32,300 bases of DNA from Verrucomicrobiales bacterium. GTDB taxonomy: Bacteria > Verrucomicrobiota > Verrucomicrobiia > Verrucomicrobiales > V1-33. A program made the position numbers and the translations under genes. Position 1 is the stretch's first letter. Every line of letters begins with the position of its first letter. Shown one piece after another: positions 9,493 through 32,230 of this stretch. Under the pieces are notes generated by a model. It saw only the letters and a list, made by a program, of their open reading frames with translations, made no database searches and was not told where the DNA came from. The stretch covers positions 1 through 32,300 of the forward strand of contig JAQGPJ010000019.1 in the NCBI GenBank assembly GCA_028293125.1, given 5' to 3'.

Positions 9493-10590
9493 TCAAAGCC
9501 GCTCCAGGAAAAGCGTGAACTCCTGCCGGTTGTAGGACAGGTGGGTCCATGAAATGAGGGAAAGCCCGCCGGTCGCGGCCTGGCGGATTACCCGGCCTGC
9601 GATGTCCGTGATATCCGGGACCGAGGCGGCTTCAGGCAGCTTGAGCGTGAAGACCACCAGTCCTCCGGGCTTCAGAGACCGGATGAAGCGCAGGACCAAG
9701 GTCATGGAGTGCTGCGCGCCGCCGTTCATATCGCTCAGCAGGGCGTCGTAGCGCGCACCGGGCGGCGGCTGGAACTCGGAGGCGTCCACATGCACAAAAT
9801 CCAGTTTGCGGCTGCGGTCCAGCCGGGGGTCCATCCAGGCGCGGTCCACAGCGGTCACGCGGTGTCCCCGGGCCAGCAGCTCGGCAGTCATGCCTCCGGG
9901 ACTGGCTCCCAGCTCCAGCCAGTGGCTGTCCTCCGGCAGGGCGGGCCGGTGCAGCAGGAGGTGGTGCAGGGCCTCTGCGATTTTGGCCCCGGCGCGGCTG
10001 ATGGTGCCCGGGGTGCTCTGGCTGATGAATTTGGTGCCGCCGGGGTAAAACCCATTGGCCTCCCGCGGGCTTTGGATGCCGGCGAAAAGTCCCGCCTTCC
10101 CCACCAGCACAAACAGCGTGGGAGCCTCCGGATTCTGGGACTCCGCCTCCTGGCCCTTCACCGCCAGCGGAGGAAACAGCTGCAGCACGCGTCCCCGGAG
10201 GTTGGAGGCCAGGCTTTTGTAATAATCCGTCCCCGCCACCGGGAGCAATGGCCCGGTCAGCACGGTTTGAGGGTGGTGGGCGGCGAATTTTCTGGCCAGC
10301 GCCTGGGCGGCCCGCTCCACAAAGTTCTCAATCTTCGGAGGCCGGCACGGCCAGCTGTGGTGCACTGGCAGATTCCAGCGCACAAACCGGGCTGCCTCTG
10401 TCCGCCGCCAAGTCTCCCCTGCAGCGGCGGGCAGCACGTGGTATTCCGATCCCAGCCGGGGGCTGGACTCAGTCCCCCCCAGCCCCTCCAGGATTTGGGG
10501 TGTCAGGCCAGCGAAGGTTTCCGAAATCCGGACCAGCCAGCCGGTGGGTTTCAATGGTCCCTGATCCTCTATTTTCTTTTCCGTCAGCAT
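9493..10590 (-). CDS. RlmM-like 23S rRNA 2'-O-methyltransferase (FtsJ-type Rossmann fold)
   Basis: A SAM-dependent methyltransferase with the FtsJ/RlmM arrangement. Motif I is LELGASPGG, followed by VTAVDRAWMD. The catalytic K-D-K-E tetrad of 2'-O-methyltransferases can be placed at Lys203 (SRAGAKIAEAL), Asp287 (LLSDMNGG), Lys317 (FTLKLPE) and Glu357 (YNRQEFTLFL), numbered from ATG 10590. E. coli RlmM methylates C2498 of 23S rRNA and shares the LGA-PGG and NLKLP segments. The N-terminal half (about 190 residues) is divergent and would hold the THUMP-like RNA-binding part. The open frame extends to a GTG at 10716, but that upstream part reads as non-coding, so I chose ATG 10590; there is no strong Shine-Dalgarno site at either position. 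Methyltransferase: very likely. The exact target base is inferred from similarity recalled by eye. Confidence 0.82.
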   Translation of the reverse strand: MLTEKKIEDQGPLKPTGWLVRISETFAGLTPQILEGLGGTESSPRLGSEYHVLPAAAGETWRRTEAARFVRWNLPVHHSWPCRPPKIENFVERAAQALARKFAAHHPQTVLTGPLLPVAGTDYYKSLASNLRGRVLQLFPPLAVKGQEAESQNPEAPTLFVLVGKAGLFAGIQSPREANGFYPGGTKFISQSTPGTISRAGAKIAEALHHLLLHRPALPEDSHWLELGASPGGMTAELLARGHRVTAVDRAWMDPRLDRSRKLDFVHVDASEFQPPPGARYDALLSDMNGGAQHSMTLVLRFIRSLKPGGLVVFTLKLPEAASVPDITDIAGRVIRQAATGGLSLISWTHLSYNRQEFTLFLERL

Positions 10591-10766
10591 CACAGACCCT
10601 GTGGCCTTTTTCCAGCCTTGGTCAATGGGCACTCGGGGCTGGAGCCAATTCCGCTGCGCTTTTCCAAATCCGGGGCAGGCCGGAAAATTCAGGTGTATGG
10701 AAAATGGAAAATCCACCGCAGGGAGCTGAGGGAATCCTGCAAATTGCGGCGATGTTCAGGGACCAG

Positions 10767-10781
10767 CCTCCCGCCGGGAGG
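10767..10781. repeat. Short perfect inverted repeat in the divergent promoter region
   Basis: CCTCCC-GCC-GGGAGG forms a six-base-pair hairpin. It sits about 100 bases before the AI-2E permease start, in the 291-base region shared with the divergent RlmM-like gene, and is followed by an AT-rich stretch (10785-10800). It could be a regulatory hairpin or chance in GC-rich sequence. There is no T tract, so it is not a terminator. Confidence 0.35.
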
Positions 10782-10881
10782 AGGATATAAATTCATAACC
10801 TTCATATTTTCAACGCCTTATGTATTTCCCGGCAAACGCGGCACAGGCTTTGCAGGGGAGTGGCCCTGCCACACTCCATTC

Positions 10882-12900
10882 ATGCAAGCCCTCAACCGTA
10901 AACTCCTGCCCCTGATCAGTCTGATCACGGGGCTTCTGGTGATTGTTATTTTTTATTACGGGCAACCGGTCCTGATGCCCTTGGCGCTGTCCGCCCTGTT
11001 CGCGTTCATGCTGAATCCGATCGTGAACTACCTCCACCGCCGGCGGATTCCCCGGACCATCGCGGTGGTGCTGGTCACCCTCTCGGTATTCTCCCTGCTG
11101 GGTGGGCTGGGCTGGATTCTGGGAAGGGAGTTCAAGGCCTTGGCGGATGATTTGCCCAAGTACCAGGGTCACATCCAGCACCGCATCGAAGAGGTGCAGG
11201 GAGCCGGCAAGAAGGGAGTGGTGGGGCGGCTCACGGAGATGAAGGAGGCCATCGAAACCGCTACGGCACCCAAGGATGATTCCGCAGCGAAAGGCGAGCC
11301 TCCTCCCATGCCGGTGGTCATCAAAAACGATGAAACCCAGGAGCACTCCTTCCTGGGTGGGAACCTGATGGATTCAGCCGGCACTTTTCTAGGCACTGCG
11401 GCCACTGTGATTGTGTTCGTCATCTTCATTCTCCTGCGGCAGCAGGAACTGCGGAACCGCATCATGCGGCTGGTGGGGTTCCGGAATCTGACCCTCACCA
11501 CCCGCGCCATGGACGAGGTGGGAGACCGCGTCGGGCGCTATCTGCTGATGCAAAGCCTTATCAACGGCATTTACGGGCTGCTGCTGGCGCTCTGCCTGCA
11601 TTTTATTGGCATGCCCTACGTGGTGTTGTGGGGGGTGATGGCGGCGCTGTTCCGGTTTATCCCCTATCTTGGCCCGCTGCTGGCCGCTGTTCTGCCGGGT
11701 CTGCTCAGTCTGGCGGTGTTTGATGACTGGTCGCACCCCATTATGGTGATCTCCGTCATCGCCGGACTGGAGCTGCTGACCAACATGGTGCTGGAGCCGG
11801 TGCTTTATGGCCAGAGCGTGGGGGTGTCGGACTTCGCGCTGCTGGTGGCCATCGCCTTTTGGACCTGGATGTGGGGCGGCATCGGTCTGGTGATGGCCAC
11901 GCCGCTCACCGTGTGCCTGGTGGTGATCGCCAAGCATATTCCGCAGCTGGAATGGGTGGATATCCTCATGGGCGACAAGCCGGATGTCCGGCCTTACATG
12001 ATTTATTACCAACGTCTGGTGGCCCAGGACGAGGAGGAGGCCGAGGAGTTCATTGCCCAGGAGCTCAGGGAGAAATCCCCCATGGTTGTGGCGGATGAAA
12101 CCATGCTTCCCGCCATCGCCTTGGCCAAGCGCGAGAGCCGCTATGACCACATCACGGAGGCGGAGGAGGCCAACATCCATGAAGTCAGCCGCCGCATGAT
12201 GGCCCAAGTGACACAATCGCAGGATGAGGATCTGAAAAAAGCCAACCAAGTCCGGGGCGCGCCGGCGGACGATGCGCCGCTGGTGCTGGGCCGTGCGGTG
12301 GACGGCATGGCGGATCAGAACGCGCTGGAGCTTTTCGATACCCTGATTCCCGGCGGGCTGAATTTTGATATCGTTCCTGCCCTGCGGCTGAATTCAGAGT
12401 TTTTCAAGGAAGTCGCGGAGCGTCAGCCCGCCGCCATCCTGCTGAGCGCCACCCCTCCCGGCAGTCATGAAACGGTGAGGCTGCATCTGCGCCGGCTGAA
12501 GGCGCAGCATCCTAATGTCCGAGTGTGCATTGGCCGCTGGGGTGTGCCCGATGATGTGGCCAATCCCGATGGTCTGATTGAAGCGGGGGCAGCAGCGGTC
12601 TTTACAACCTTTTCCCAAGCGCAGAAAGCGTTCACGGATTGGTTTGGCGGCAAGGCACCCAAAGGGAGTGTGCTCCATAAACAGACGGCAAGCACGGAAA
12701 AGGCGGAGGAGAAGGAAAAAGAAAAAGATAAGAAAACCCCCGCTGAATCCGGGGCGGACACAGGCTCCAAACCTGTCAGCGGATTCCAGAAACTGGCGGA
12801 GGAGGATGAGCGCGAACCGGAACCGGTCACTCCCTTTCCCAAACCTATCCCGCTCAAAGCCATGGCACCCAACAAAGCGTCCGCCAAAACGGACAAATAA
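10882..12900 (+). CDS. AI-2E family permease with a large cytoplasmic C-terminal domain
   Basis: The first 370 or so residues are a typical AI-2E/TqsA/PerM-type membrane protein. There are two N-terminal hydrophobic segments (LLPLISLITGLLVIVIFYYG and the PLALSALFAFMLNP region), an amphipathic periplasmic stretch, then further membrane segments with the conserved IPYLGPLLAAVLPGLLSL and the ELLTNMVLEPVLYG element. Some members export autoinducer-2; others are ion or solute transporters, so the substrate is unknown. Residues beyond about 370 are cytoplasmic. A segment starting LVLGRAVDGMADQNALELF and including PAAILLSATPPG, VRVCIGRWG and GAAAVFTTF resembles an alpha/beta (B12-binding-like) fold. 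A charged, Pro- and Lys-rich tail follows. At 672 residues it is almost twice the usual family length. I chose ATG 10882 because it directly precedes the first membrane segment; the open frame upstream is antisense to the RlmM-like gene. Confidence 0.9.
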   Translation: MQALNRKLLPLISLITGLLVIVIFYYGQPVLMPLALSALFAFMLNPIVNYLHRRRIPRTIAVVLVTLSVFSLLGGLGWILGREFKALADDLPKYQGHIQHRIEEVQGAGKKGVVGRLTEMKEAIETATAPKDDSAAKGEPPPMPVVIKNDETQEHSFLGGNLMDSAGTFLGTAATVIVFVIFILLRQQELRNRIMRLVGFRNLTLTTRAMDEVGDRVGRYLLMQSLINGIYGLLLALCLHFIGMPYVVLWGVMAALFRFIPYLGPLLAAVLPGLLSLAVFDDWSHPIMVISVIAGLELLTNMVLEPVLYGQSVGVSDFALLVAIAFWTWMWGGIGLVMATPLTVCLVVIAKHIPQLEWVDILMGDKPDVRPYMIYYQRLVAQDEEEAEEFIAQELREKSPMVVADETMLPAIALAKRESRYDHITEAEEANIHEVSRRMMAQVTQSQDEDLKKANQVRGAPADDAPLVLGRAVDGMADQNALELFDTLIPGGLNFDIVPALRLNSEFFKEVAERQPAAILLSATPPGSHETVRLHLRRLKAQHPNVRVCIGRWGVPDDVANPDGLIEAGAAAVFTTFSQAQKAFTDWFGGKAPKGSVLHKQTASTEKAEEKEKEKDKKTPAESGADTGSKPVSGFQKLAEEDEREPEPVTPFPKPIPLKAMAPNKASAKTDK

Positions 12901-26339: not shown

Positions 26340-26427
26340 ATCATTCGGTGGGGTGTTGGAAAGGGGAGCGGACACGGATTACAGCACTGTCATTTGCCAG
26401 GACCAATCCCTGAGGGAAGCCTTTTGC
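26340..26427. promoter_or_regulatory. 88-base divergent region between the response regulator and the polyketide operon
   Basis: Promoters for both the two-component system and the radical SAM operon must lie in or very near this spacer. It contains a G-rich stretch (26347-26372) and, before the plus-strand GTG start, GAGGGAAG (26412-26419), which may act as a Shine-Dalgarno site. No consensus sigma-70 pair stands out. Confidence 0.4.
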
Positions 26428-27885
26428 GTGCTCAATCCGCCGCCGCCCTCCACTCTTTCCCAACGGGTGCTGTTTCTCAATGCCAATGAGACCACCCGTC
26501 CCTACCGCGTGGCACCGCTGGGATTGGCGTTTGTGGCTTCGGCCACAAGGGCAGCCGGACACCATGTCCGTTTCACCGACTGGCCGACAGGAAAACGGGA
26601 CCGGAAGGCTTTGCGGAAAACGGTGCGTGAATGGCCGGTGGATATTCTGGCGGTGGGATTGCGCAATCTGGACAACTCGGATTACCACTCCTTTGAAAGC
26701 TATCTGCACCGTCCCGCTCAGCTGCTGGCGGAGCTGCGGAGGGAGCGTCCGGCAATGAGAATCATCCTCGGAGGACCGGCGGCCACTGTGGACCCGGGGA
26801 CCGTTCTGCGGATCTGCCAGCCGGACCATATCATTCTCGGCGAGGGGGAGGAAAGCTTTCCCCAGGTCATTGCCAGAATGCTGGCGGGAGAGAAACTGCC
26901 GGAAATCATCGGCGCGGACATGGCAAATACCCAGCCCTTCCGGGTGGCCGTGACCCACGATATTCCCGCGCCTCTGCTGCACGGGTGGCTTCCAAGGCTG
27001 CGGCCCTACCTGCGCGGCGATGCCGGTTACCCGCTCCAGACGAAACGTGGCTGCCCGCTGAAATGCAGCTACTGCACTTACGGCCGTATTGAGGGAGCCA
27101 AATACCGGTTTCTCAATCCGGAAGCCATTGCGGACGAGGTGGCCGGTGCCATGGCCCGGGGTGTCCGGGACTTTGAGTTTGTGGACAGCACCTTCAATCT
27201 TCCGCCGCGTCACGCGATGGAGGTGCTGGCGGTTCTGGAGCGCCGGGGGCTGAAGGCGAACTTCGTCGGCACCGGGCTGAATCCCTGCAGGCTGCCGGAC
27301 GAACTGCTGGCGGCCATGCGCCGCACCGGCTTCCGCAGCGTGATCCTGACCGCTGAGAGCGCGTCCGACACCATGCTCAGAAGTTACGCCAAAAACTACA
27401 CCCGGCGCGGACTGCATGAAACCGTGGCCAAACTTTCGCGGCATGGACTGCGTGCTCTGTGGGTTTTCCTCGTGGGAGGGCCGGGGGAAACACCGGAGAC
27501 CATTGAGGAGACCCTGTCGTTCATCGCACAGCAAATCCGCCCGCCGGATGCGGTGTACATCACCAGCGGGATCCGGATTTATCCCGGCAGCCCCATCGGC
27601 GCTGAAGTGAACGCCGGGATGTGGGCGAGGGAAAATCTCCGGACACGGGGAGATGACTCCCATCTGGAATTTTTCTACTCGAAGGACACTCCGCCGGACT
27701 GGCTGGAGCAGCGTCTGCGGACCTTCCAGCGGGCGCATCCGCATGTCATGCTTTCCTGCGAGGGCCACGGGGCGGCGGTGGAGAACGCGCTGCGCATCTT
27801 GCCTTACCTGCCGCTGCGGAAGCCTTACTGGCAATACCTGCCGGCCCTGAACCGGATCAAACGTCTCCTGCCGTTTCTCAACTGA
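26428..27885 (+). CDS. B12-binding-domain radical SAM enzyme
   Basis: A 485-residue class B type radical SAM protein. The N-terminal part (VLFLNANETTRPYRVAPLGL, LGGPAATVDPG, ILGEGEESFPQVI) has the Rossmann-like cobalamin-binding domain pattern, although it lacks an obvious DxHxxG and so may bind no B12. The radical SAM core follows: the iron-sulphur cluster cysteines are Cys209, Cys213 and Cys216 in KRGCPLKCSYCTYG, with later core strands EFVDSTFNLP and ESASD and the glycine-rich VGGPGETPETIEET. Members do methylations, ring formations and other radical changes on lipids, tetrapyrroles and natural products. The start is uncertain: the frame is open from 26176 but that part is antisense to the response regulator. 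GTG 26428 has a GAGGGAAG site upstream; GTG 26467 is the alternative. It is the first gene of the polyketide operon, with yceI 7 bases downstream. Confidence 0.88.
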   Translation: MLNPPPPSTLSQRVLFLNANETTRPYRVAPLGLAFVASATRAAGHHVRFTDWPTGKRDRKALRKTVREWPVDILAVGLRNLDNSDYHSFESYLHRPAQLLAELRRERPAMRIILGGPAATVDPGTVLRICQPDHIILGEGEESFPQVIARMLAGEKLPEIIGADMANTQPFRVAVTHDIPAPLLHGWLPRLRPYLRGDAGYPLQTKRGCPLKCSYCTYGRIEGAKYRFLNPEAIADEVAGAMARGVRDFEFVDSTFNLPPRHAMEVLAVLERRGLKANFVGTGLNPCRLPDELLAAMRRTGFRSVILTAESASDTMLRSYAKNYTRRGLHETVAKLSRHGLRALWVFLVGGPGETPETIEETLSFIAQQIRPPDAVYITSGIRIYPGSPIGAEVNAGMWARENLRTRGDDSHLEFFYSKDTPPDWLEQRLRTFQRAHPHVMLSCEGHGAAVENALRILPYLPLRKPYWQYLPALNRIKRLLPFLN

Positions 27886-27892
27886 ACCCATC

Positions 27893-28489
27893 ATGCGAAT
27901 TCCACCTATAATTTTACTTCTGGCGGTTCTTGCCGCGGGATTCACCACCGCTCCGGCCGCCTCTGCCCCCGTCCAGCCGCCAGGAACCTGGACAGGCAGT
28001 TGCGATGTCTCGTTTCATGGAACCTCCACCCTGCATGATTTCGACGGTACAGTGAGGGCGGTGCCGCTGGAGGTGAAGGTGGAGCCGGATAAAAGCGGTC
28101 CCGTGGTGTCCGTCGCGGCCAGAGTCACGGTGGCGGACATGAGAACGGGTGACGATGGCCGCGACGCCAAAATGCGGTCCATGTTCCAGTCCTCCTCCTT
28201 CCCTCAGCTGGAGGTGAAAGTGGAAAAAGCCCCGGTGTCCCAAGCCCGGCCGACCGCTGGCGGCGCAGCGGGCACGCTGCCCGTGAAACTGATCATCGCG
28301 GGCAACGCGGCGGCGGTGAGCGGCCGCGTCACGGATTTGAAGGAGACGGCGGACAGCGTGTCCTTCACACTGAGTTTTCCGGTTTCGCTGGCCGCCTGCA
28401 AACTGAAACCGCCCAGTGTGGCAGGCCTTATCCGGGTGGGCGATGAGGTCACGGTGAAGTCATGGGTGTCCCTGAAACGCAAAAAATGA
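27893..28489 (+). CDS. Secreted YceI-like lipid-binding protein
   Basis: A 198-residue exported protein with a signal peptide (MRIPPIILLLAVLAAGF, likely cleavage after the ASA near residue 24). The mature part has the YceI pattern: a first beta strand with GTSTLHDFDGT, then a run of alternating hydrophobic strands, M-R-x-M-F-QSSSFPQLEVKV, and a final hydrophobic strand pair. YceI proteins are lipocalin-like barrels; structures of relatives contain a polyisoprenoid or long fatty-acid-like chain, so they are thought to carry or store amphipathic lipids in the periplasm. Its stop overlaps the ATG of the downstream FAD/polyketide synthase gene (ATGA), and the radical SAM gene ends 7 bases upstream. 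This tight packing suggests that it handles the product of those enzymes. The product link is inference. Confidence 0.85.
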   Translation: MRIPPIILLLAVLAAGFTTAPAASAPVQPPGTWTGSCDVSFHGTSTLHDFDGTVRAVPLEVKVEPDKSGPVVSVAARVTVADMRTGDDGRDAKMRSMFQSSSFPQLEVKVEKAPVSQARPTAGGAAGTLPVKLIIAGNAAAVSGRVTDLKETADSVSFTLSFPVSLAACKLKPPSVAGLIRVGDEVTVKSWVSLKRKK

Positions 28490-30831
28490 AACGTGTGGAT
28501 ATTGTCATGGTGGGGGGCGGACCAGCCGGCGGCATGATGGCTTGGAGCGCCGCGCGGGCCGGGTTTTCCGTGATCCTGCTGGAAGCTGGCGCGGTGCTTC
28601 CGGAAAGGGTCTGCGGCGCGTATCTGTGCCCGGCCGGCGTGCGGCTGCTGGCGGAGCTGGGTCTGCTGGAGCGGTTGACGGCGGGATGCCGTGAACTGCT
28701 CGGCATGATCATGGTTTCGCCGGAGGGCCGCCGCGTGCAGGCGGGTTTTCCGGCGGATGGCGGCGCCATCACCCACGGTCTGGCGCTGGACCGTCCGGGC
28801 TTTGACCGGCGCTGGCTGGAGCTGGCCCGCGGGGCGGGAGCCGAAGTGCGGATGGGTGCGCGGGTGATGCGTATGCATCATGCCGCCGGGGATGGAGCGT
28901 GGCGGGTGGGGACAGCGGATGGGCGGGAAATCCACGCGGAACTGCTGGTGGGCGCGGACGGGCGGAAGTCTTTTGTGGCCCGTCATTTAGGGGTCCTCCA
29001 AGCCCCCAAACGCATTCGGGCCGCCGCTCATTTGGATGTGGCCCCCCTGCAGCCGCTGCCGCCGTTCGGGCAGATGCATGTGTTCGCGGACGGCAGTTAC
29101 GCCGGCCTCAATCCCCTCGCCTCCGACCGCGTGAATGTCTCCTTTGTCTGTCATCCCGAAGCGCTCCGGGATCACGGTGCCGCTGAATGGCTGAACAGCC
29201 GCCTGCGCGGCACCCTCCTCGGCGAACAAATCCCGGTTCTGGACAGCAACGCCAAATTCGGCATCACCTTTCCCGCAACCTCCTCCGTGAGCGCCGTCGC
29301 CACCGGGAATGCCGCTTTGATAGGCGACGCCTCGGGATTCATTGATCCTCTGACCGGCGAGGGGATTTACAATGCGCTCTGGACCGCCCAGGCATTGGCT
29401 GCCGCATTGGAGAAAAACCGGGGTAACCTTTCCGCCGCACTTCGCCAGTACACCGGCATCCGGTGGCGGACCCAATGGGCAAAGGCCGCGCTTTCCCATG
29501 TTTTCCAAGGTGTCATCCGCCGTCCCGTGATGGCCAACAGCGTGCTGCGGCTGCTGGCCCGCCGGCAGGGAGTGGCGGATGCCTTTATCGGCATCATCGG
29601 CAACACCCATTCCCCCGCCCGGGGATTCGCGAAAATGATCCGCGAAGCTCTCCGAAGCCGCTCCGATGGCGACGCCCATGGTTCCTCCCCCCATCCCCGC
29701 ATGTCCGCCCACATCAATCACATCGCCTGCGCGTCACCGCTGAATAACCAGCAGGCCGCATTCCTCGAGTCCCTGCCGCACTGGGTGGGTCCGCCCGCCA
29801 TCGTGGAAAAACTGCGGCAGGTCGCGGCCAACAGCGGCATCCGGAGCCGGCACAGTGTTCTGGAGTCGCCATTTGGCCCCCCCGGCAGTGGCGCGTTTTA
29901 TTCCTACGGGCAATTTCCCGGAACACAGGCCCGCATGGAGGCCTACCGCCGCTATGCGCCGCCTCTGGCGTTCGAGGCCGTGAGGAGGCTGCAGGCGGAA
30001 GCCGGTCCCGCCGCCGCGCAGCCCACGCATCTGATCGTCACATCCTGCACGGGATTCTACGCGCCGTCGCTGGATATTGATATTGTGAGGGAATTCAGTT
30101 TCTCCCCGACCGTCAAACGCACCCTCATCGGCTTCATGGGCTGCCATGCGGGACTTGTGGGCCTGCGCACGGCCTCGGATATCGTGAATGCCGATCCCGC
30201 CGCCACTGTGATGGTCGTGAATCTGGAACTCTGCTCGCTGCACCTTCAGCAGACCCTCCTCATGGACCGGCTGATTTCGTTTCTCCTGTTCGCGGACGGC
30301 GCGGCGGCCAGTCTGGTCACTTCGAAACCGGAGGGCCTGCGCATCGACGGCGCCTGGAGTCATGCCAGTCTGGAGGATTCGGAGCGCATGGCCTGGAATA
30401 TTGAGGACAGCGGCTTCGCCATGACTCTCGACGCCCGGCTTCCCATCCGCATCCGGCAGTTTCTCTCACGGCATGCGGAATACGGCAGTCCCGCAACAAC
30501 GGGTCCTGCGGACCCTGAAACCCTCTGGGCCGTACATCCGGGGGGCCGCCTCATCCTGGACAGCGTGCAGGACGCCTTTGGCCTGAGTGATGCCCGGATG
30601 GCGCCCTCCCGCCGTGTGCTCAGGGAATACGGCAACATGTCCTCCGCCAGCGTGCTTTTCTCCCTGCGGGAGCATTTGCTGGCCGCGGATGCCGTGTCCC
30701 GTCCCGGACGGGCTCTGGCTTTCGGGCCCGGCCTGACCATTGAGGGGGTCAATTTCACTAAAATCCCCAAGCCCGTGCGGATAAAGGCACGACCCGCCCG
30801 CCAGGAGTCAGCCGTGGAAATCACAGCATAG
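28486..30831 (+). CDS. Fusion of FAD-dependent oxidoreductase and type III polyketide synthase
   Basis: One uninterrupted frame of 781 codons. Residues 1 to about 390 are a geranylgeranyl-reductase-like FAD enzyme: VGGGPAGG (9-16), PERVCGAYLCP near the substrate/FAD site, VGADGRKSFVARHLG, and the second FAD motif ALIGDASGFIDPLTGEG. A hydrophilic linker (about 391-405, Ser/His/Pro-rich) leads to residues 406-781, a complete type III polyketide synthase (chalcone-synthase fold). The catalytic triad is Cys553 (GFMGCHAGL), His684 (WAVHPGGRLILD) and Asn717 (LREYGNMSSASVLF); LLFADGAAASLV and the C-terminal GPGLTIEG are also typical. Such synthases extend acyl-CoA starters with malonyl-CoA to give alkylpyrones, resorcinols or similar rings; the FAD part could reduce or hydroxylate the product. 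The start ATG overlaps the yceI stop. An internal ATG at 29701 could also give a stand-alone synthase, but it has no Shine-Dalgarno site. Substrates are unknown. Confidence 0.93.
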   Translation: MKRVDIVMVGGGPAGGMMAWSAARAGFSVILLEAGAVLPERVCGAYLCPAGVRLLAELGLLERLTAGCRELLGMIMVSPEGRRVQAGFPADGGAITHGLALDRPGFDRRWLELARGAGAEVRMGARVMRMHHAAGDGAWRVGTADGREIHAELLVGADGRKSFVARHLGVLQAPKRIRAAAHLDVAPLQPLPPFGQMHVFADGSYAGLNPLASDRVNVSFVCHPEALRDHGAAEWLNSRLRGTLLGEQIPVLDSNAKFGITFPATSSVSAVATGNAALIGDASGFIDPLTGEGIYNALWTAQALAAALEKNRGNLSAALRQYTGIRWRTQWAKAALSHVFQGVIRRPVMANSVLRLLARRQGVADAFIGIIGNTHSPARGFAKMIREALRSRSDGDAHGSSPHPRMSAHINHIACASPLNNQQAAFLESLPHWVGPPAIVEKLRQVAANSGIRSRHSVLESPFGPPGSGAFYSYGQFPGTQARMEAYRRYAPPLAFEAVRRLQAEAGPAAAQPTHLIVTSCTGFYAPSLDIDIVREFSFSPTVKRTLIGFMGCHAGLVGLRTASDIVNADPAATVMVVNLELCSLHLQQTLLMDRLISFLLFADGAAASLVTSKPEGLRIDGAWSHASLEDSERMAWNIEDSGFAMTLDARLPIRIRQFLSRHAEYGSPATTGPADPETLWAVHPGGRLILDSVQDAFGLSDARMAPSRRVLREYGNMSSASVLFSLREHLLAADAVSRPGRALAFGPGLTIEGVNFTKIPKPVRIKARPARQESAVEITA

Positions 30832-31222: not shown

Positions 31223-32230
31223 GTGAAACGCCGCCATCCCCTTCTCCTCGCCAGCCTGTTCGTGCCCGGAACCCGGACCGTTGCGGAAGCCTTTCCCCAG
31301 GACTACGATTACAGCTATCAGCTTTATCAGGAGGACGATGACCGGATCAGGGTTCAGTCCCATTACGTCCGCGCGAAGCTGGATATTCTGGATGGAACCA
31401 GTTTCCGGTTTCAGTATCTCAACGACACCATCTCCGGAGCCTCGCCGACCGGCGCGCTTCCCGGAGGCTCCCAGCCTTTCCTCGCGGATGTGGAGGATGT
31501 GCGGACGGGGATCCTGGGGGCGCTCGCGCAGCAGATCGGAAACCACCGGGTGGAGCTCGAGCTGTCATACAGCGAGGAGCATGACTATATTTCCCGGGGT
31601 TACACGCTGACCGACGCCGTGGATTTGAACCAGAAAAACACCACTCTGACCTTCGGGGTGAATTATCTGGACGACACCGTGGAGGTGCCGATTCTGGGCG
31701 ACAAGGGCAAGGAGAGTCTGGATTTCTTCGGCGGCGTGTCCCAGATCCTGGGTAAAAACACCGTGGTCTCCGGCAATGTCACACTGGGATACAGCAACGG
31801 TTATCTCAATGATCCCTACAAAGTGGTGCAGCGGGACGAAATACTGCATACCCCGGACATCTCCATCGACGCCGGGGATGGAACTTTCATCGTGATCCCG
31901 GGAGTGGATGTTCCGGTGGTCAACATCTACCGGGAAAACCGTCCCGACACCCGTTTCCGGCAGGTGTATCAGCTGGAGGGGAAACATTATTTTGAAACAC
32001 CGGGAGCCACCGTGGATCTTCTGGGCCGCCTCACGCACGATGATTATGGCATCACTTCGGAAATGGCTCAATTTGAATGGCGTCAGGAACTGGGTCCGCA
32101 TATTCAATTGATTCCTTTTGTCCGTTATTATCATCAGAATGCCGCCGACTTTTTTGTCAACAGCCTGAACAAACTGAAAATAGGCACGCCTGCGGATGGC
32201 GGTTTCAAGTTCCAAGCCGAACGGGGATGA
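31223..32230 (+). CDS. DUF3570 family outer-membrane protein, apparently truncated
   Basis: A 335-residue protein with a signal-peptide-like start (KRRHPLLLASLFVPG) and the beta-barrel pattern of DUF3570: the opening DYSYQLYQEDDDRIRVQSHY, then alternating aromatic strands, DVEDVRTGILGALAQQ, RGYTLTDAVDLNQKNTTLTFG, RPDTRFRQVYQLEGKHYFE and FVRYYHQNAADFF. Family members are usually about 400 residues, with several more barrel strands after the AADF motif and an aromatic last residue. Here the protein stops 25 residues after AADF with a hydrophilic end (FQAERG), so the last strands are missing. An imperfect inverted repeat begins 8 bases after the stop, which suggests an insertion or rearrangement. 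The start is GTG 31223; no strong Shine-Dalgarno site. Function of the family is unknown; it is thought to sit in the outer membrane. Confidence 0.8.
   Translation: MKRRHPLLLASLFVPGTRTVAEAFPQDYDYSYQLYQEDDDRIRVQSHYVRAKLDILDGTSFRFQYLNDTISGASPTGALPGGSQPFLADVEDVRTGILGALAQQIGNHRVELELSYSEEHDYISRGYTLTDAVDLNQKNTTLTFGVNYLDDTVEVPILGDKGKESLDFFGGVSQILGKNTVVSGNVTLGYSNGYLNDPYKVVQRDEILHTPDISIDAGDGTFIVIPGVDVPVVNIYRENRPDTRFRQVYQLEGKHYFETPGATVDLLGRLTHDDYGITSEMAQFEWRQELGPHIQLIPFVRYYHQNAADFFVNSLNKLKIGTPADGGFKFQAERG

Follow-up and report, generated by a model that had tools for sequence, protein, structure and literature searches.

A single reading frame encoding an FAD oxidoreductase and a type III polyketide synthase in a Verrucomicrobiales bacterium: a probable lineage-specific fusion of adjacent operon genes

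Introduction

Bacterial type III polyketide synthases (PKSs) are usually single-domain proteins and, to our knowledge, their tailoring partners have usually been inferred from gene neighbourhood only. In the draft genome of a Verrucomicrobiales bacterium, a frame that begins as an FAD oxidoreductase continues into a type III PKS, which raises the question of whether two ordinary neighbouring genes have truly become one, and what such a joining would mean for the pathway. The window analysed here (32,300 nt) is one whole contig (G000:C34) of this 6.48-Mb genome, which is 99% complete and consists of 120 contigs.

Results and discussion

The fused frame and its genomic context

A single stop-free frame extends over 28462–30831 on the plus strand, in which ATG 28486 was judged the best start, giving a protein of 781 aa that ends at 30831. 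The other candidate, ATG 28462 (789 aa), was rejected because ATG 28486 overlaps the stop codon of the upstream YceI gene as ATGA, an overlap conserved to the same extent in the syntenic locus L035. The apparent operon has the order B12-radical-SAM, YceI and FAD-PKS, with the following features.

26365..27885, plus strand: B12-binding radical SAM protein gene, start inferred; order kept, with 65% identity, in L035 and L106
27893..28489, plus strand: YceI-like protein gene, its stop overlapping the FAD-PKS start
28486..29658, plus strand: FAD domain, a GG-reductase / QhpG-type flavoprotein (PF01494), residues 1–391 (about); from Pfam, NCBIfam, motifs and comparison with relatives
29659..29700, plus strand: linker, residues 392–405; absent in relatives and codon-neutral
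29701..30828, plus strand: type III PKS domain, residues 406–781, with the stop at 30829–30831; from Pfam and alignment with relatives
30142..30144, plus strand: codon of catalytic Cys553, from the PKS alignment
30535..30537, plus strand: codon of catalytic His684, from the PKS alignment
30634..30636, plus strand: codon of catalytic Asn717, from the PKS alignment
31223..32230, plus strand: DUF3570 protein gene, about 390 nt downstream of FAD-PKS, operon membership uncertain

It was also noticed that, elsewhere in the window, two frames overlap on opposite strands (9493–10716, minus, and 9709–12900, plus). One of them carries a methyltransferase domain (Methyltransf_23/FtsJ) and the other an AI-2E transporter domain confined to residues 403–744; the true start of the transporter gene is probably further downstream.

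Two complete enzymes in one frame

An earlier note, made from the sequence alone, had described two complete enzymes in this frame, and the domain searches bore this out. No internal stop interrupts the 781 codons, and the product matched FAD_binding_3 (PF01494) in its N-terminal part at 59.6 bits (Pfam cut-off, 22) as well as Chal_sti_synt_N and Chal_sti_synt_C at 61.8 and 68.8 bits, respectively (curated cut-off, 27). The FAD motifs GGGPAGG, GADG and GDASG were located at residues 10, 156 and 280, respectively. Cys553, His684 and Asn717, found at the positions given in that note, form the Cys-His-Asn triad and were invariant among 11 aligned PKSs, and the closest solved PKSs by sequence were 4b0n, Steely1 and PKS18. 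An AlphaFold prediction of the fused protein, based on a three-row alignment containing two relatives, had a pLDDT of 34.5 and a pTM of 0.26, values too low for a usable structural model.

The best NCBIfam match of the FAD domain was the geranylgeranyl reductase family TIGR02032, and MenJ also matched; the FAD half might thus be a reductase that saturates an acyl or isoprenoid chain, not a ring oxygenase, which would be compatible with the fusion. However, the score of 120.3 bits fell short of the curated cut-off for membership of TIGR02032 (158.8), and the QhpG monooxygenase was also near. The closest solved FAD proteins were 6sw1 and 2x3n, which we take to be Pseudomonas FAD monooxygenases, together with flavin-dependent halogenases, and related PKSs have FAD partners that carry the annotation monooxygenase or have been described as hydroxylases. 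The domain belongs to the subfamily of the FAD monooxygenase found beside alphaproteobacterial type III PKSs (hhalign probability 99.4%, E 2e-21). On these data, reduction of the chain seems less likely for this enzyme than oxidation.

Unfused relatives and the history of the fusion

The three closest relatives, which belong to Verrucomicrobia and share family or gene order with the fused locus (G007, G010 and L035), have PKS parts 60–63% identical to the fused one. In all three, FAD and PKS are separate adjacent genes: 1) in G007, the FAD gene ends in TAG and the PKS ATG follows after 6 nt in the same frame, 2) in G010, the TGA of the FAD gene is followed by 7 nt and then the PKS, and 3) in L035, where the order is radical-SAM, YceI, FAD and PKS, the FAD and PKS genes lie in different frames and overlap by 16 nt. 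Another contig of G010 (L106) also carries radical-SAM, YceI and FAD genes in this order. Recurrence of the two-domain form within a clade, a prospect raised in the earlier note, was therefore not borne out among the nearest relatives. The same note had named, as an observation that would speak against a fused enzyme, relatives that always carry separate genes with a conserved start at ATG 29701, and this largely agrees with what was found, since in L035, G010 and G007 the separate PKS gene starts at the aligned position. The search of genome contigs returned L035 as the single relative, and the viral contigs searched contained none. Plasmid matches were confined to the PKS, and none of the records covered 80% of the query; a search with only the FAD part found no match among plasmids.

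In a tree of 61 PKSs, the FAD-linked PKSs of this lineage (n = 4) formed a supported clade (99/89), within which the fused PKS was sister to the three unfused ones. Because of this placement, the simplest history would be one fusion on this branch, and the fusion is most simply read from the sequences as a recent, lineage-specific event. Six sister PKSs of the same family had no FAD neighbour that could be found. One of these is C119 (L002 1495–2697, G000:C119), a second, stand-alone type III PKS of the same genome that is 54% identical, and the clade of C119 and the FAD-linked clade are sisters. A match of C119 extending back to residue 362 was considered as a trace of an ancestral fusion and rejected, as it crosses a TGA and C119 is without an FAD neighbour.

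The conserved position of ATG 29701 also bears on how the fused frame might be translated. Ribosomes might start there as well, so that fused protein and free PKS would coexist, and it is consistent with this that the corresponding starts in the three relatives, like most genes in the window, are without Shine-Dalgarno motifs. On the other hand, the relatives' PKS genes start at or beside the upstream stop, which is consistent with termination-reinitiation, whereas no stop lies near ATG 29701. We consider internal initiation unlikely, and a single polypeptide remains our preferred expectation.

The junction

As assembled, the sequence does contain the fusion. The linker, described in the earlier note as short and hydrophilic, corresponds to about residues 392–405 (14 residues, RSDGDAHGSSPHPR). 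Codon preference clearly favoured the fusion frame in the two domains (+179 and +196 bits), with negative values for the other frames, and was neutral in the linker region (29635–29700), which has no coding signal of its own. This neutrality, like the unfused state of the nearest relatives, would be in keeping with an assembly or sequencing error that joins two ordinary separate genes. So would the codon CGA at 29653, as a single substitution to TGA would place a stop where the relatives' FAD genes end; judged from the sequence, no other simple change would yield separate genes at the usual place. A hidden stop near 29650–29700, which had been proposed earlier as the sign of such an error, could thus arise by this substitution but not by any single-base indel after 29635, upon which the FAD frame would end only at codon 418 or 420, beyond the PKS start. 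A single-base deletion within 29560–29635 would truncate the FAD protein at codon 383; this, however, conflicts with the residue-by-residue similarity of frame 0 to the relatives, which extends to Leu389, a residue invariant among four FAD proteins. In addition, some 30 nt more lie between the conserved SPARG motif and the PKS ATG than in two of the relatives, and some 46 nt more than in L035. Since this stretch is longer than in the relatives, the junction differs from theirs by more than a point change, and a one-base error leaves the roughly 30 extra nucleotides unexplained. Given also that consensus substitution errors are rare, an error is improbable, and the fusion, though known from a single draft assembly in 120 contigs, is probably genuine.

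Type III PKS loci in Verrucomicrobiota

PF02797 was searched in several hundred genomes from each of the order, the phylum and the class; counted by hand, the strong type III PKS hits in Verrucomicrobiota genomes came to about 150 places. Frames longer than 600 aa were found at just two of these, the present one and G341:C57 (779 aa; L110 1684–4023, identical to L051 1504–3843). The latter has an N-terminal type III PKS, with its catalytic residues kept, and directly after it a C-terminal UbiH/PHBH-like FAD monooxygenase. It has the reverse domain order and a different FAD subfamily, and is independent of the fusion at 28486–30831. Among the 61 PKS loci with flanks, 37 had the FAD gene on the same strand downstream of the PKS and 4 had it upstream; in 2 it was fused, and in the other 18 none was found. 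The earlier statement that FAD enzymes are usual neighbours of such PKSs is therefore upheld, with one beside or fused to the PKS in 43 of 61 loci, and agrees with published clusters (PMC10896814, PMC8776678). As FAD genes adjoin most of these PKS genes, the fusion joins enzymes that were probably already working together.

Other joined parts were seen downstream of PKS genes. In L118 (7787–9841), the FAD enzyme encoded downstream has at its N-terminus an MddA-like membrane methyltransferase domain, identified by a profile match, and the N-terminal extensions in L119 (1607–3586), L122 (5760–7730) and L127 (6152–8122) resemble it by eye. In these four loci the FAD monooxygenase gene follows the type III PKS directly or at a short distance, and other loci also contain FAD frames of about this length. 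The G341 and L118 proteins indicate that fusions between pathway parts are not unique to the present locus.

A YceI gene was directly upstream of the type III PKS in 28 of the 61 loci, across distant Verrucomicrobiota PKS lineages, a placement that suggests a role in carrying a lipid product. RND or MMPL transporters followed the PKS in several relatives and, together with YceI, suggest an envelope lipid product.

Proposed origin and function

Because both catalytic domains are intact in one frame and the relatives keep separate genes in the same order, we consider it reasonably probable that the locus represents a lineage-specific, in-frame fusion of two genes that are normally adjacent and probably co-transcribed within a type III PKS lipid operon. 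The FAD gene would have lost its stop, the lengthened intergenic stretch becoming the linker, and one polypeptide would be made from the fused frame. Based on the association with known PKS-FAD operons, the PKS half probably acts as an alkylresorcinol or alkylpyrone synthase using acyl-CoA, and the FAD half probably as an oxidising enzyme. The PKS half would dimerise and extend an acyl starter with malonyl-CoA, and the tethered FAD half would oxidise, probably hydroxylate, the resulting alkylresorcinol or alkylpyrone. By analogy, the likely product is an oxidised lipid of one of these types, which YceI may help to move to the envelope. The coupling of synthesis to redox tailoring is thus plausible from the domain content, and the fusion would fix stoichiometry and proximity and would require no new chemistry.

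The absence of a methyltransferase gene, also claimed in the earlier note, holds for conventional enzymes: none was detected with Pfam and NCBIfam among the neighbours from 24.6 to 32.2 kb, although such an enzyme is a trait of srs/hid-type alkylresorcinol operons. The claim is less secure for the B12-radical-SAM gene, conserved upstream at 26365–27885 in the window, 4535–6193 in L035 and 1772–3202 in L106, whose product scored 242 bits against TIGR04072 (lipid biosynthesis; cut-off, 360) and could, to judge from this similarity, be a C-methylase replacing the missing methyltransferase.

The occurrence of two independent fusions of opposite order in one phylum suggests that both activities act sequentially on one substrate. 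It is a further and more doubtful step, which we propose only tentatively, that bifunctional FAD and type III PKS enzymes arose at least two times in Verrucomicrobiota, in opposite orders and with different FAD subfamilies, passing a reactive polyketide directly between active sites. A natural fusion states the partnership of PKS and tailoring enzyme directly and identifies the tailoring enzyme as a member of one FAD subfamily. The single fused protein offers a starting point for working out the function of the FAD oxidoreductase in these operons, which is poorly understood.

Comparison with known systems

No description of an FAD-type III PKS fusion was found among the open-access papers searched, although one may have been described elsewhere. 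The FAD oxidoreductase accompanying the type III PKS in srs/hid-type operons is present, fused here and adjacent in the relatives. In srsABC of Streptomyces griseus, which encodes an alkylresorcinol synthase, a methyltransferase and a hydroxylase, a type III PKS and a hydroxylase/monooxygenase act on the same lipid (PMC6669644, PMC8086630), as proposed here, but the three genes are separate and include a methyltransferase, whereas the fused locus is without a conventional one. In hidABC and the planctomycetal methyltransferase-oxidoreductase-PKS operon, the FAD oxidoreductase gene also immediately precedes that of the type III PKS. Alkylresorcinols were shown to be the PKS products and the oxidoreductase was not assigned a role, but the genes are separate, a methyltransferase stands in front and no fusion is mentioned (PMC10896814). 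In Acetobacteraceae clusters, an FAD enzyme and a methyltransferase accompany the type III PKS (PMC8776678). Alphaproteobacterial operons of PKS, methyltransferase and FAD monooxygenase (L160–L162) are similar, the L160 PKS being 43% identical, but differ in having the order PKS-MT-FAD with all genes separate.

The Dictyostelium Steely enzymes are fusions of a type I fatty acid synthase (FAS) with a type III PKS as the C-terminal domain. The present protein resembles them in carrying a C-terminal type III PKS in a natural fusion, and the PKS domain of Steely1 is among its close solved structures, whereas the Steely partner is a fatty acid synthase instead of a flavoenzyme and the host is eukaryotic. 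Set beside these systems, the fused locus represents an unusual form of a well-known gene cluster, specific to one lineage, and not a new kind of system.
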